NCBI RefSeq assembly: GCF_003049575.1
Contig: NZ_PYWI01000001.1
Span: 434,001-498,000 of the forward strand
DNA length: 64,000 bases
From: Lysinibacillus parviboronicapiens
GTDB lineage: Bacteria; Bacillota; Bacilli; Bacillales_A; Planococcaceae
Direction of reading: 5' to 3'
Part shown: positions 5,840 to 11,177 of the stretch, piece by piece
How positions within the stretch are numbered: position 1 is the stretch's first letter
Layout: every line of letters starts with the position of its first letter
Notes under the pieces: model-generated
Seen by the model: only the letters and a program-made list of their open reading frames with translations
What the model was told of the DNA's origin: nothing
Databases searched by the model: none
Made by a program: the position numbers and the translations under genes

Positions 5840-5932
5840 ATTGATTTATATTTCTTCATCTCATTTATTATCACTTCAAGAATTCTTTTCTTAGCAGGCT
5901 AAAAGCAGAATAAAATATCAGTAAGCATACAA

Positions 5933-6070
5933 GTTGATTGGCATGGAAGGTGGTACATTCCTGCAACAACAGCACGTGCGGAAAGGAAGCGCCTGGAACG
6001 GGAATCAACAGGTTCATATAGATACTTCTATTTAAAAGAAAAAAACAAACTCAATTTTTTGAGTTTGTCT
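5933..6070. repeat. Dispersed repeat copy 1 with shared tail
   Basis: A 77-bp element bounded by GTTGATT (5933-5939) and AATCAAC (6003-6009) contains CAGCACGTGCGGAAAG and CGCCTGGAACGG. It is followed by TTCATATAGATACTT, a CTATTTAAAAGAAAAA tract and a hairpin ACAAACTCAA/TTGAGTTTGT (6045-6068). The tail recurs at 36936-37010, next to a related but longer element. Both copies lie beside a transposase remnant. Confidence 0.6.
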
Positions 6071-6078
6071 ACAGTAAG

Positions 6079-6115
6079 AAAGGTGATGAAAAAATATTTT
6101 TCATCACCTTTTTTG
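6079..6115. terminator. Strong terminator downstream of comX
   Basis: A near-perfect hairpin AAAGGTGATGAAAAA/TTTTTCATCACCTTT with T-rich flanks on both strands. On the minus strand it lies about 65 bp after the comX-like stop codon, marking the end of that short transcript. On the plus strand it isolates comP from upstream transcription. Confidence 0.8.
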
Positions 6116-6178
6116 CGCAAAAATTGTAACTTGCAATCCTGAAGAAATTGCTGTACTTTCAAGAATTCTTAAAAGAGT

Positions 6179-6355
6179 TTATCTAGGTAACCAGGATGAT
6201 GATTTTTGTAAAACATCCGATTTATCAGAACCGTTAATAACTTCCTGAATAATACTTAACTCTGAAACTGAAATATCCCCAACCATTTCCATTTTACCGA
6301 AATCTACTTCTTTATTGGAGCATAAAAGCATTGAATGAACTATTTTCATTATCAT
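6179..6355 (-). CDS. comX: ComX-like pheromone precursor
   Basis: A 58-residue ORF beginning MIMKIVHSML and ending SSSWLPR. ComX precursors are about 50-75 residues, highly variable, and carry one essential tryptophan three or four residues from the C terminus that ComQ isoprenylates. Here the only tryptophan is W55, four from the end, as in the natto-type ComX ending WVPS. AAGGAAGGG is spaced six bases from the ATG; the in-frame ATG at codon 3 would be too far. It has its own -10 box upstream and terminator downstream. It diverges from comP, with comA and comQ next. ComX family similarity is too weak to prove by eye, so the call rests on length, tryptophan position, ribosome site and locus. 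Confidence 0.82.
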   Translation of the reverse strand: MIMKIVHSMLLCSNKEVDFGKMEMVGDISVSELSIIQEVINGSDKSDVLQKSSSWLPR

Positions 6356-6384
6356 AGTATTCCCTTCCTTTCAATTTCTTTACA

Positions 6385-6444
6385 ATTATAATACTATAAA
6401 AGAAGTAAGTAATAACCGCAAATATATTAGAGATAACCGCAAAT
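6385..6444 (-). promoter_or_regulatory. comX promoter with two ComA-type half-sites
   Basis: On the minus strand a TATAAT -10 box occupies 6390-6385, about 30 bases before the comX ATG. The -35 region (TTACTT) is poor, as at activator-dependent promoters. The 12-mer ATAACCGCAAAT occurs at 6412-6423 and again at 6433-6444, a 21-bp period or two helical turns. B. subtilis ComA recognises TTGCGG-N4-CCGCAA, so each copy holds one CCGCAA half-site. The placement, about 39 and 60 bp before the expected comX start, suits activation of comX by the adjacent ComA. Confidence 0.65.
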
Positions 6445-6468
6445 TTTTTATTCTGGGAAGGATTAAAA

Positions 6469-8775
6469 ATGATGAATGAAAAAAGAAAAATCCTTGTTTT
6501 ACAGTTTATATTTTTAACGGCTCATCTTTTTTTAATTTTCACCATGCTCTCACCCTATATAGGAATAGCAATACACTTTAACAGTAATGAGGAAGTTGTC
6601 GTTACTAATGTATATGATAATGATGGTTGGGCACGTTATACGAATCTTTCACCTGGAGACGTCATCTTAGAAGTAGATGATAAGGAAATTAGCTCAATAA
6701 AAACTTATAACTATAATAATTGTTTTGTTCATGGTTCCTCAATAAAAATTAAACGAAATAATGAAATGAAATACATTCAAGCTCCAACTAATTCACGTAA
6801 AGATACTTTTCAGGAAATTATAATTCCAAGTATTTTTTCCTTAACTGTATTTGTCCTTACTTTATTTATTTACCAACAAAATAGTAAAGTTGCTTTCTAT
6901 TTAATAGGATTTCTTTTATCAGTATCTCTTAGTTTTTTTGCCTCTACAGAATCTGGACGAGGGGATATTGTATCTAGTATTTTAATATGTGTTTTTTTCC
7001 CTCTTGGTTCCCTTTTCCTTACACTTTTCATTCATAGGTTGTTACTGGAAAAAGGAATTATTAAAAATAAATGGCTAACTTTTTTTAAAATCAATAGTGT
7101 CATTTGCCTGTTCGTTATTTTTCTAAAATTAGCGACACTTTTGCAAAACAATTTACTTGATGTTATCAGCACTGGACTAATGTTAAGCTACTTTTGCCTC
7201 AATATTTGTTTTTCAATTATGCTCTTACTTTATTTTTATGTAGCCACTAAAGGCTCTCATCATGAAGTCTTTTTTAAATGGTTAATATTAATTCATGTCT
7301 GTGCCTTTATCCCATTTATTTTTTTACATGCTGTACCATTTATTTTTAATCTTCCCTATCTACAAGATGATGTAGCAGCTTTTACGTTATTTATTATTCC
7401 TATAGGTTATTCTTACATAGTATTGACTAACCGTTTAATAGACATAAATTTTATTTTAAAACAAATTCCATATTATACATTCTTAACATTTATCCCCACG
7501 TTAGTGTTAACTATTCTAGTAATAAGCGATAGATTTTATACAGAAAATGGCGTTGTGTATTTTATTATCTTATTTTTAGCGATACTAATTATTAATATTG
7601 TTACATTATTTTTAAAAGAAAAATTAGATTTTCAATTAAAAGATAGTTTTCTTTATAAACAATCCTATTTGTCCAAAAATCTAAATGAATTTTCACAAAA
7701 ATTACCTTCAGTTATGAAAGAAAATGATTTGGAAAATTTACTGCTTAATCAAATTACAGAAATATTAGACCCTCAGATTCTTTTATTAATACGGCTAAAT
7801 AAAGAAACACTAGAATTTCAAAGCATAGATTATAAAAGCAATTCACAAAGTATGCTTACTGATTTCATCAAGAAAAAGTTAAAAAATACTACTACTGATA
7901 CTTTAATTGGCAACCCGAATTATCTTGGAATTGAACTTTATCAAACTGATAGCTATGTCACCTATCTATGGGTAAGCCAAAAAAGAAATAATACCACTTT
8001 TAATATGCACGAAAAAATGTGGCTAATTAATATTGTAAAGTATGTGAGATTAGTTCATGAAAATTTAAATATCGTACAAAATATTATAAAGTCAATAGAA
8101 AAAAGAGATACTACTAATCATCAATCATCGAATACTCTTTCTAGATTTTTATTGCAATTAGGCGAACAAGAACGAATAAGACTGGCTTCTGATTTGCATG
8201 ATTCTGCCTTACAAGATCAAACAATTTGGTATCAAAAATTAGATAAAGTAATACAAAATTCAAGTAGTACCTTGCAAGAAGAAGAATTAGCCACATTAAA
8301 TAAAATAAAAAATGGGCTATTGGATGTTATTAAACAGCTTAGAGAAACTTGCAGTGAGCTTCGTCCCAATTTTATGCTGAATACAGATTTTACTGCTTCG
8401 TTAGAAGAATTCTGTAAAAAAAAACAAATGAAAGTTAGTTATAATTTGAAATATGAATTTCATAATTTTTCCGATTACTCTAATAATTATAATTTAACTA
8501 TTTCCATTTATCGGGTACTACAAGAACTCTTAAACAATGCGGAGAAGCATGCTAAAGCCTCTGTCGTTTCAGTGGAGATGTGGGAAGAAAATGATTATAT
8601 TTTTTTAGATTATAAGGACAATGGTGTAGGAATGAACAATTCTATCGAAAAATATAGTGAACACCATATTGGACTCATTGGAATAAAAGAAAGAATTCAT
8701 ATTCTAAACGGTGACATTGAATTTATTTCTGAAGTCGATAAGGGATTACAAATTCTAATAACAATACCGAGGTGA
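6469..8775 (+). CDS. comP: ComP-type membrane histidine kinase
   Basis: A 768-residue kinase, almost exactly the length of B. subtilis ComP (769). An N-terminal helix and an extracytoplasmic PDZ-like segment (GWARYTNLSPGDVILEVDDK, about residues 45-75) precede a block of about seven or more membrane helices. Then come LIDINFILKQIPYYT, matching the conserved end of the ComP sensor, a linker, HisKA_3 with LASDLHDSALQDQ (phospho-acceptor H577) and an HATPase domain with the N-box ELLNNAEKHA (from 686) and GLIGIKERI. It should sense the modified ComX peptide and phosphorylate ComA. GGAAGGA precedes the ATG. The stop abuts the comA ribosome site. Confidence 0.93.
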   Translation: MMNEKRKILVLQFIFLTAHLFLIFTMLSPYIGIAIHFNSNEEVVVTNVYDNDGWARYTNLSPGDVILEVDDKEISSIKTYNYNNCFVHGSSIKIKRNNEMKYIQAPTNSRKDTFQEIIIPSIFSLTVFVLTLFIYQQNSKVAFYLIGFLLSVSLSFFASTESGRGDIVSSILICVFFPLGSLFLTLFIHRLLLEKGIIKNKWLTFFKINSVICLFVIFLKLATLLQNNLLDVISTGLMLSYFCLNICFSIMLLLYFYVATKGSHHEVFFKWLILIHVCAFIPFIFLHAVPFIFNLPYLQDDVAAFTLFIIPIGYSYIVLTNRLIDINFILKQIPYYTFLTFIPTLVLTILVISDRFYTENGVVYFIILFLAILIINIVTLFLKEKLDFQLKDSFLYKQSYLSKNLNEFSQKLPSVMKENDLENLLLNQITEILDPQILLLIRLNKETLEFQSIDYKSNSQSMLTDFIKKKLKNTTTDTLIGNPNYLGIELYQTDSYVTYLWVSQKRNNTTFNMHEKMWLINIVKYVRLVHENLNIVQNIIKSIEKRDTTNHQSSNTLSRFLLQLGEQERIRLASDLHDSALQDQTIWYQKLDKVIQNSSSTLQEEELATLNKIKNGLLDVIKQLRETCSELRPNFMLNTDFTASLEEFCKKKQMKVSYNLKYEFHNFSDYSNNYNLTISIYRVLQELLNNAEKHAKASVVSVEMWEENDYIFLDYKDNGVGMNNSIEKYSEHHIGLIGIKERIHILNGDIEFISEVDKGLQILITIPR

Positions 8776-8780
8776 AAGTA

Positions 8781-9413
8781 ATGATACAAATATTAATTGT
8801 GGATGACCATCCAATGGTTGGTCTCGGTACCAAAAATATACTGGAGGAAGTAACAAATTTTGATATTACCTATCTATTAGATAGTCAACAGGTTATACAA
8901 GCCATTAAAAAAAAATCTTTTGATATTTACTTACTAGATATTAATATGCCCAACTGTTCGGGAATTGAATTATCCAAAAAAATCTTAAATACTCATGCGG
9001 ATGCTAAAATCATTTTCTATACAGGTTTTGATTACTCTTTTCAATTTAATACGTTAATTGAATTAGGTATTTATGGCATCATAAGTAAATCAGCTTCCTA
9101 TCAAGTTTTAGTTTTGAATATACAAGCTGTGCTGAACGGTTATGTGTTAGTCCCAAGAGAAATGCTAATCAGGTCAACCCCTTCAAACTTTTCACAAGGT
9201 TTATTCAGTGCTGATCATCGTCAAGTGTTTTCCCAAAAAGAGCTAGATATATTGGAGAGTTTAGCAAAAGGTTCCAGCAATAAAGAAATTGCAGATGAGC
9301 TTTTTATGAGTATTCGTGCAGTTGAATATAACCTAACAAAAATCTATAAAAAGTTGTGTGTCACTTCTCGTTCCGAGGCAGTCGCAAAAGTATTAAACAA
9401 TAGTCAAATATAA
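8781..9413 (+). CDS. comA: ComA-type response regulator
   Basis: A two-domain regulator of the NarL/LuxR class. The receiver domain (about residues 1-120) has acidic residues in IVDDH and the phospho-acceptor D53 in YLLDINMPN. The C-terminal LuxR-type helix-turn-helix contains KELDILESLAKGSSNKEIAD and SRSEAVAK. The frame is open from a GTG at 8772, but GAGGTG at 8770-8775 is correctly spaced for the ATG at 8781, giving MIQILIVDDHP and 210 residues. The neighbouring kinase is ComP-like, so this is ComA by sequence and context. Likely targets include the half-sites at 6412-6444. Confidence 0.9.
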   Translation: MIQILIVDDHPMVGLGTKNILEEVTNFDITYLLDSQQVIQAIKKKSFDIYLLDINMPNCSGIELSKKILNTHADAKIIFYTGFDYSFQFNTLIELGIYGIISKSASYQVLVLNIQAVLNGYVLVPREMLIRSTPSNFSQGLFSADHRQVFSQKELDILESLAKGSSNKEIADELFMSIRAVEYNLTKIYKKLCVTSRSEAVAKVLNNSQI

Positions 9414-9461: not shown

Positions 9462-10403
9462 ATGGAGACACGCAACAACAGTCAATTACATGAAGAATTA
9501 ATATCCATAGCAAATCAACTAATTGAGACTGCTTTTACAGAGCAACACTTGCACAACCTTGCCCAAAGTTATGTACGGTTTAAATTTCATCAAAGTATAA
9601 ACTTTGCCTTACTAACTGAGCTTCATTATTCCATCTTTAGAGAGCAGCAGACCCTCAAGGAACAAAGAGAGCTGCAAGTCGTGATGGAGTTAATTATTTT
9701 AGCGGCCGATATTTTAGATGATATTCAAGACAAAGATGCATCTATTTATCCTTGGTCAGAGGTCAACTTTGAAGAAAATTCAAATATCATTATTGGTTTA
9801 TTACTCACAGCATTCAATAAAATTACTTTATTAGACTGTTGTTTCGAGGTCAGAAATTTCATGAGCCAGCAAATTCATTGCTTATTGCTGCAATCCATTA
9901 ATGGACAGCAAAGAGATATTAACAATCGAATCACGACTGAAACCGAATATTTAGAAATGGCTAGCTTGAAATCAGGTTCCCTCACGCAATTGGCCTGTGT
10001 ACTAGGGGCTGGCAATGTCTCAGAAAAAACTTTAAATATTATTAAAACCTATTCAAACTATATAGGCATCATTGCTCAAATCCGCAATGATGTGCATGAT
10101 TTGTTAACAGAGCACCAAATAAGTGATTTACATATAAAAAAGATTACTTTACCAGTCCTTTACTATCTTTGCATAGATGATGACGATTTTCTCCCTATAA
10201 AACATTACTATAATAGTGAGCAAATCTTTATGCATTTAACAGATTCAGAAAAGGATCATTTTATGAAAGTCATACGACAGGGCGGGGCTATTCAATATTG
10301 TCATGCAGTAGAAAAAATTTACTACCGTAAATTTATAAATTGCATTGAAGGTTTACCTATCTCGAACATAGCACGCGAGCAACTATTAACTCTAAAATTT
10401 TAA
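9462..10403 (+). CDS. comQ: ComQ-type isoprenyl transferase
   Basis: A 313-residue member of the polyprenyl synthetase fold. The first Asp-rich motif is DILDDIQDKD (residues 83-92), the usual metal and diphosphate site. The second is weaker: IRNDVHDLL at about 207-215. Both look like ComQ, which attaches a farnesyl or geranyl group to the ComX tryptophan, more than like chain-elongating enzymes. LKSGSLTQLA also matches. GGAGG lies nine bases before the ATG. It is separated from comA by 48 bp and ends in a terminator. In B. subtilis comQ is first in the locus; here it is last. An unrelated prenyltransferase role is unlikely given the neighbours. Confidence 0.9.
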   Translation: METRNNSQLHEELISIANQLIETAFTEQHLHNLAQSYVRFKFHQSINFALLTELHYSIFREQQTLKEQRELQVVMELIILAADILDDIQDKDASIYPWSEVNFEENSNIIIGLLLTAFNKITLLDCCFEVRNFMSQQIHCLLLQSINGQQRDINNRITTETEYLEMASLKSGSLTQLACVLGAGNVSEKTLNIIKTYSNYIGIIAQIRNDVHDLLTEHQISDLHIKKITLPVLYYLCIDDDDFLPIKHYYNSEQIFMHLTDSEKDHFMKVIRQGGAIQYCHAVEKIYYRKFINCIEGLPISNIAREQLLTLKF

Positions 10404-10481: not shown

Positions 10482-11177
10482 CTACTGATTTCTCAATATA
10501 TCCAATTTTCGGTTAATTTTTTTCCTTTTTCTATTAAACATTATCCGCTTTAGTTTACTCCCCGTATTGTTATACTTTACAAATAATTCATCCGGGTTAT
10601 TAAAAATCCCTAAATCATCTGTTATTGAAAAGCTCTGTACATATACACTTTCACCAGTCCAACATAGATTTATGTTATCCTTATCTTTCACAGAAATTCC
10701 ATATCCGATAAAACCATCATTAAAACTGCAAAGTCTATTTTTTACTTGCTTTAAATAAGAGTCATCAATAATTACACCTTCAAGGGCAATCCATTCATCA
10801 TTTACATTCACTTCCGTCCAAGCGTGTACAATTTTATTGGGCGCTAATAGGTATGTGATACCCGTTAAAGCACCCTTTTGCATTTTTTTATCAATAAAAA
10901 AACCATGAATCCTGCAAGGAACGCCAACAGCTCTTAGTAAAGCCATTAAAAGTGTACTTTTTGTATTACATTGCCCATAGCCGTCTTGCAATACTTCCGA
11001 AGCAGGTATATCATCCCCTCGGTTATACCCGAACTTAATTTCATTTCTGACAAAATCATAAATCTGCTTGATTCTATCTTCATAATTTAAGTTATCCCAG
11101 CCTTTTTGTCTTATTAGGTGCTGAAACATTTCATCGTTAAAGTTTAACATTGCTGTCGGCTCCAAATATTTTTCCAT
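10482..11177 (-). CDS. Transglutaminase-like (papain-fold) protein
   Basis: A 231-residue protein with no signal peptide. The transglutaminase-core motif DGYGQCNTKSTLLMALLRAVGVP holds the likely nucleophile C70, and KIVHAWTEV holds H118. The third catalytic residue, usually Asp in LDPT, appears changed to ALEGVIIDD, so E133 or a nearby Asp would have to serve. Bacterial members act as peptidases, amidases or transferases; the substrate here is unknown. It converges on comQ and is transcribed separately from the exporter gene upstream, which has its own terminator. The ribosome site is a weak AAGGGTGAG. A role in processing a product of the neighbouring cluster is speculation. Confidence 0.75.
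   Translation of the reverse strand: MEKYLEPTAMLNFNDEMFQHLIRQKGWDNLNYEDRIKQIYDFVRNEIKFGYNRGDDIPASEVLQDGYGQCNTKSTLLMALLRAVGVPCRIHGFFIDKKMQKGALTGITYLLAPNKIVHAWTEVNVNDEWIALEGVIIDDSYLKQVKNRLCSFNDGFIGYGISVKDKDNINLCWTGESVYVQSFSITDDLGIFNNPDELFVKYNNTGSKLKRIMFNRKRKKINRKLDILRNQ

Follow-up and report, generated by a model that had tools for sequence, protein, structure and literature searches.

Organization of the locus

The window, that is the whole 64,000-nucleotide stretch of Lysinibacillus parviboronicapiens DNA analyzed here, contains a short open reading frame that diverges from a comP-comA-comQ gene cluster (Table 1), the two divergent start codons, of this frame and of comP, being 113 bp apart. 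Its 58-residue translation (MIMKIVHSMLLCSNKEVDFGKMEMVGDISVSELSIIQEVINGSDKSDVLQKSSSWLPR) contains a single tryptophan, Trp55. An initial annotation of this DNA had proposed that this frame is a ComX-like pheromone gene with a ribosome-binding site, its own -10 box and a terminator. The extent and C-terminal sequence of the frame, the place of its tryptophan, the ribosome-binding site ahead of the ATG, the terminator-like hairpin and the divergent arrangement with comP, comA and comQ all agree with that proposal. As for the promoter, only its -10 half is confirmed, because a consensus scan of 5900-6520 found no sigma-70-type promoter (2.7 expected from shuffled sequences).

Table 1. Genes and sequence elements of the com locus in the window.
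Feature	Position	Strand	Remarks
Terminator-like hairpin, downstream of comX	6043..6070	-	About 110 bp beyond the stop codon
comX-like pheromone precursor gene	6179..6355	-	58 aa, ends SSSWLPR
Trp55 codon, predicted isoprenylation site	6191..6193	-	4th residue from the C terminus
comX ribosome-binding site	6362..6368	-	GGAAGGG, identical in L. sphaericus OT4b.31 (G006) and G005
comX promoter -10 box	6385..6390	-	TATAAT, without a good -35
Proximal ComA-like box	6409..6422	-	TTTGCGGTTATTAC; TTGCGG begins 31 bp upstream of the -10
Distal ComA-like box	6430..6443	-	TTTGCGGTTATCTC; 21 bp from the proximal box
comP-like receptor histidine kinase	6469..8775	+	768 aa; hydrophobic N-terminal half, PDZ domain, HisKA_3, HATPase_c
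comA-like response regulator	8772..9413	+	Receiver and LuxR-type DNA-binding domain (Pfam)
comQ-like Trp isoprenyltransferase	9462..10403	+	FARM DDIQD, pseudo-SARM NDVHD

The three plus-strand genes have the features expected from their names. ComP matches HisKA_3 (26.0 bits) and HATPase_c (40.4 bits) above the cut-offs, and a simple hydropathy rule gives it 11 hydrophobic segments, as in a multi-pass receptor kinase. For the DNA-binding domain of ComA, the closest solved structure is that of B. subtilis ComA (E 1e-10), with 2krf and 3ulq at the top of 29 structure matches; when the full-length protein is compared, 10 matches reach E 1e-12 or lower, headed by other regulators. According to the available text of PMC5331326, isoprenylation of Trp by ComQ requires a FARM of the form DDxxD together with a pseudo-SARM of the form NDxxx or GDxxx (not DDxxD), and one B. 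subtilis-type ComQ allows the modified Trp at the second to fourth position from the end. Both DDxxD and NDxxx are present in each of the 34 aligned ComQ rows. Beyond comQ, the window contains a convergent 231-aa reading frame (10482-11177), transglutaminase-like by eye, which adjoins comQ in G006, G005 and G001 too.

Conservation of the comX-like reading frame

The position of the tryptophan is by itself unremarkable, since 6 of the 146 reading frames of 45-75 aa in the window, the comX frame included, have a Trp second to fourth from the end. Conservation is thus needed to decide on a frame that is short, lies on the opposite strand and belongs to no Pfam or NCBIfam family, all of which would also suit a chance frame or a functionless remnant. 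The window peptide, queried against 101 genomes, had matches in 16 of them with E no higher than 1. Besides the window itself (G000), the strong matches are in L. sphaericus OT4b.31 (G006; 76% identity, E 5.9e-24) and in G005 (53% identity, E 1.7e-14), which belong to the same genus. Both are at the syntenic place, with the same neighbor genes. Matching was weak in G010 (E 0.0047) and in G015 (E 0.6), and both of these frames directly adjoin a close comQ and were accepted as comX by this position and by their Trp. Trp55 is invariant across the five rows of the resulting alignment (A2), the scores of which are circular where G010 and G015 are included, because both were accepted on position and Trp. 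The match in G001 is a C-terminal fragment only, and ten other genomes each gave a single weak match (E 0.06-0.83).

Among 32 genomes of the genus, intact comX is found in G000, G005, G006, G010 and G015 (their E-values in this search being circular, because these five made the model), and the same five are those with an intact close comQ. Twelve further genomes of this set gave weak matches only (best E 0.07-0.87). Thus the frame and its Trp are retained in five out of five genomes with an intact close comQ; their loss in relatives that keep comQ, which the initial annotation had named as a refutation, did not occur. In the sixth genome with a close comQ, G001, stops break both comX and comQ.

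For the three pairs formed by the window, G006 and G005, dN/dS of the frame is 0.22, 0.32 and 0.25, and the most variable sites are third codon positions. Judged from this substitution pattern, the comX frame is under purifying selection. Its conservation at syntenic places sets it above chance and, together with the selection, contradicts a fortuitous or functionless frame, as does the fact that, within the genus, the copy interrupted by stops has a broken comQ as its neighbor. We therefore consider such an origin most improbable. From the sequence comparisons, the frame is real and very probably the comX of this locus. We infer a new pherotype for its product, one that is not private to the window strain since the last 16 residues are the same in L. 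sphaericus OT4b.31.

Relationship to the ComX family

No model of Pfam or NCBIfam matched the window peptide, which does not reach the 25-bit cut-off of Pfam ComX (PF05952). Eight relatives encoded on the opposite strand likewise stay below this cut-off, with 24.7 bits for G191, 14.1 bits for G010 and no match for the other six. Profile comparison proved more sensitive. Using hhalign, the profile of the divergent peptides matched 14 canonical ComX, 12 of which were drawn from the reading of comQ loci, with a probability of 93-94% (P 1.8e-7 with five rows, 4.3e-7 with seven). This match, which indicates homology of the divergent peptides to known ComX, covers the leader, up to residue 42. The length of the window peptide and the place of its Trp fall within the ranges taken for ComX precursors (52-73 aa, Trp second to fourth from the end), and its gene lies beside comQ, comP and comA, in a non-canonical order and strand.

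The G191 peptide bridges the divergent and the canonical ComX, because it matches a divergent profile built without it (E 1.1e-5) and also scores with Pfam ComX (E 2.1e-5). The profile search that found it covered 398 genomes, of which 7 gave a match with E no higher than 0.05; the five besides the window and G191 are weak, and no com locus was seen at one of them, G378. A profile built without them likewise picked out the truncated peptide of G622 and four from genus g154 (E 6e-8 to 8e-6; matches in 6 of the 24 genomes, one of them G191). These five peptides are all encoded opposite to the comP strand. In total, Trp lies within the last four residues of comX in 13 intact loci, where intact refers to comX and comQ; two of the 13, G632 and G633, have a fragmentary comA.

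By analogy with known ComX, it can be proposed that ComQ isoprenylates the Trp of the window peptide and that the peptide activates ComP. The frame may instead encode a conserved small protein that serves a different role, such as regulating ComP, and has its C-terminal Trp by coincidence, the signal being supplied from elsewhere in the genome. The failure of Pfam and NCBIfam to recognize it would agree with this, and so would the presence of two recognizable ComX genes, on contigs C35 and C20, which are the two Pfam ComX matches above the cut-off in this genome. Contig C35 (L056) carries a complete canonical comQXPA; on contig C20 (L057), comX adjoins a comP-like kinase, with no comQ or comA match within 12 kb. 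No comX other than the divergent frame was found near the comP of the window, a finding that the initial annotation had also named as a possible refutation. That a canonical comX elsewhere serves the window locus was judged unlikely.

The profile homology and the C-terminal Trp of the 13 intact loci also argue against another function, as does the provision of at least one canonical comX, that of C35, with its own partners. So do two decayed loci. In G001, comX and comQ are lost together. In G622 (L141), comX is cut short with loss of its C-terminal part, comP is split and no comQ match lies within 14 kb. Taken together, we regard a small protein of other function as improbable. Conservation, retention of the Trp and the lack of a rival comX at comP support the reading of the frame as a ComX-like pheromone gene.

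The G001 locus (L055 5219-9050) retains full-length comP and comA, which share 87% and 96% identity with their G005 counterparts. From this pattern of loss, G001 is possibly a listener that no longer makes the signal of this locus.

Gene order and the ComQ clade

The order X/P-A-Q, where the slash marks divergent strands, is found in the window, G006, G005 and, as a remnant, G001. By place it also holds for Chengkuizengella L081 and L082, where comX was assigned by place and Trp only; the Trp of the L082 candidate is its last residue. A second order, Q-[X reversed]-P-A, is found in G010, G015, G191, Pseudogracilibacillus auburnensis (L080), G628, G629, G632 and G633. Regarding the 13 named relative loci, L078 and L079 duplicate G006 and G010, L080-L087 were covered and L088-L090 were left out. 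In a set of 58 comQ loci (some being duplicates), 46 have a comX downstream of comQ and co-oriented with it; in four, all of G010 and G015, comX is reversed relative to comQ; no comX-like frame adjoins comQ in the remaining eight (window, G006, and two each for G005, G001 and G048). On plasmids, comQ occurred only in distant forms, none of the 18 records reaching 60% identity.

A phylogeny of 34 ComQ sequences unites the 11 non-Chengkuizengella ones whose comX is reversed or divergent (support 100/99-100), and the Chengkuizengella ComQ join this group at support 93/95. Among the relatives covered, a comX encoded opposite to comP accompanies a single well-supported ComQ clade that spans several genera. 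A single origin of the opposite-strand comX is likely and stays unproved, because the tree was rooted at its midpoint and contains long branches in other parts. The window locus suggests that encoding comX on the opposite strand is an ancient feature of a single ComQ clade.

Some of the relatives show further arrangements. In Chengkuizengella L081 and L082, a further kinase, ComP-like by eye, is located upstream of the divergent comX candidate, so that two receptors may flank one signal gene. Desulfosporosinus L085-L087 have the order X-Q-P-A on one strand, with comX candidates ending in LFWF, LYWV or LFWV. In G632 (L142 4070-4286) and G633 (L145 4357-4741), comA is fragmentary and comQ, comX and comP look intact; these loci may signal without ComA.

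Tandem ComA-like boxes upstream of comX

Just upstream of the comX -10 box lie two units of the type TTTGCGGTTAT, 21 bp apart, with TTGCGG as their core. This hexamer is the recognition element of B. subtilis ComA (PMC4797271, available text). The same pair, at the same distance from TATAAT, is found in G006, and G005 retains the pair. In G191, which belongs to another family, TTTGCGGTAATTAC and ATTGTGGAAATTAC are 21 bp apart and located 28 bp ahead of TATAAT, and the broken G622 locus still has a recognizable, similar pair at 21 bp. At spacing 21, the box score is 23-26 out of 28 in the window, G006, G005, G191 and G622, from which the scored unit was itself derived, and at most 17 in ten other regions. 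In G001, with its broken comX and comQ, the boxes have disappeared. In two families alike, 28-31 bp separate the box from the comX -10. If the comX -10 is correct, the boxes are centered near -41 and -62. Such positions are typical of activation.

None of 200,000 mononucleotide shuffles reproduced the hexamer pair, and an exact direct repeat as long as that observed (12) arose in 56 of 20,000. A regulon search of the 4.75-Mb genome found no pair besides the one at the comX promoter; the backward-read control pattern also gave one match. The canonical inverted ComA box is not in excess in this genome (6 sites versus 7 for the control). Across 399 genomes, a strict pattern, which misses the window and G006 (distal unit ending in CTC) as well as G191 (proximal unit TTGTGG), matched only the G005 comX promoter and a site in G502 inside a frame resembling a sensor kinase. 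Five further matches came from viral contigs (L146-L150), and no com genes were seen near those of L148 and L149. On L149 (3507-3575), four TTGCGG units with a 21-bp period, resembling replication iterons, precede a 266-aa frame. The 21-bp spacing is therefore not unique to com loci.

Since the core is a ComA half-site, it predicts that ComA drives positive feedback on signal production, and such feedback at comX is inferred from the promoter sequence. Alternatively, the frame would be comX and the boxes would not be an activating ComA site, being bound by another regulator or serving ComA to repress comP or comX. The spacing speaks for this possibility. The half-sites are perfect, and the spacer, 15, is neither that of TTGCGG-4-CCGCAA nor that of TTGCGG-5-TTGCGG, the known ComA promoter arrangements. 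In the available text of PMC4797271, a 15-nt spacer abolished in vitro binding of B. subtilis ComA to direct repeats, which makes a single dimer across both boxes unlikely and would call for two dimers or some other mode. Moreover, the boxes lie between comX and comP, 26 bp separating the closer hexamer from the start of comP, and could thus equally act on comP. Finally, they are absent from 9 of the 13 loci with intact comX and comQ. On the other side stand the exact match of the core to the ComA half-site in a locus whose regulator has a ComA-like DNA-binding domain, the cross-family distance to the comX -10 and the lack of a good comX -35, as at activated promoters. We regard a non-activating role of the boxes as a tentative yet serious possibility.

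A proposed signaling circuit

As a whole, the data are best explained by a ComQXPA-type quorum-sensing locus, comX(-) and comP-comA-comQ(+), an explanation that we hold to be highly likely. At the level of sequence, comX exists, is under purifying selection, has a leader homologous to ComX, keeps its Trp and decays with comQ. As in the family, the 58-aa precursor would be translated, ComQ would add a geranyl or farnesyl group to Trp55, and a C-terminal peptide ending in WLPR, with the modified Trp, would be released. This peptide would then activate ComP, leading to phosphorylation of ComA. As a further step, ComA~P may bind the two TTGCGG boxes upstream of the weak comX -35 and activate comX, thereby closing a positive feedback loop on signal production.

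A broader view, to which we give an even chance, is that the ComX branch was rewired, comX having been inverted under tandem ComA boxes shared across families and having become self-amplifying, with G001 as a listener that lost signal, isoprenyltransferase and boxes. The tandem boxes, which the initial annotation had missed, may be the more interesting feature of the locus.

Comparison with known systems

Like canonical ComQXPA systems (B. subtilis, and Lysinibacillus, e.g., contig C35), the window locus combines a ComQ with FARM and pseudo-SARM, a short precursor with a C-terminal Trp, a multi-pass histidine kinase ComP and a ComA-like regulator. The canonical order is Q-X-P-A on one strand, whereas here comX is divergent and comQ comes last. 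A signal gene missed by Pfam and NCBIfam, with a predicted pheromone ending in SSSWLPR, now completes this quorum-sensing locus.

In 2014, a hypothetical opposite-strand comX was described in L. fusiformis ZC1 and three B. cereus strains (PMC4008528, Fig. 4A). These "unusual com-like loci" resemble the window locus by a comX candidate on the opposite strand with a Trp near the C terminus. However, in the available text of that study, their comX lies between comQ and comP, has no appreciable homology and carries no claim of function, unlike the window locus with its X/P-A-Q order, detectable homology, clade and promoter boxes. The available text of PMC8895600 does not mention Lysinibacillus. 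In the open literature, we found no description of the X/P-A-Q order, of the ComX homology of opposite-strand frames or of their clade, nor of ComA boxes ahead of comX. The comX promoter with its ComA-like boxes is the main new point of the locus.

This promoter is akin to ComA-regulated promoters of B. subtilis in its TTGCGG element and in carrying at least two elements close to or ahead of the -35 (PMC4797271, available text). Those promoters combine an inverted repeat with a spacer of 4 and a direct repeat with a spacer of 5, whereas the comX promoter of the window has a direct repeat with a spacer of 15 and no clear inverted partner. Likewise, ComA-like boxes precede comX here, whereas the available text of PMC7794433 describes ComX production by the B. 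subtilis ComQXPA system without positive feedback. If ComA drives comX in the window locus, naturally occurring ComQXPA systems that possess positive feedback could be set directly against those that lack it, a comparison now testable owing to the B. subtilis work on feedback-free quorum sensing.
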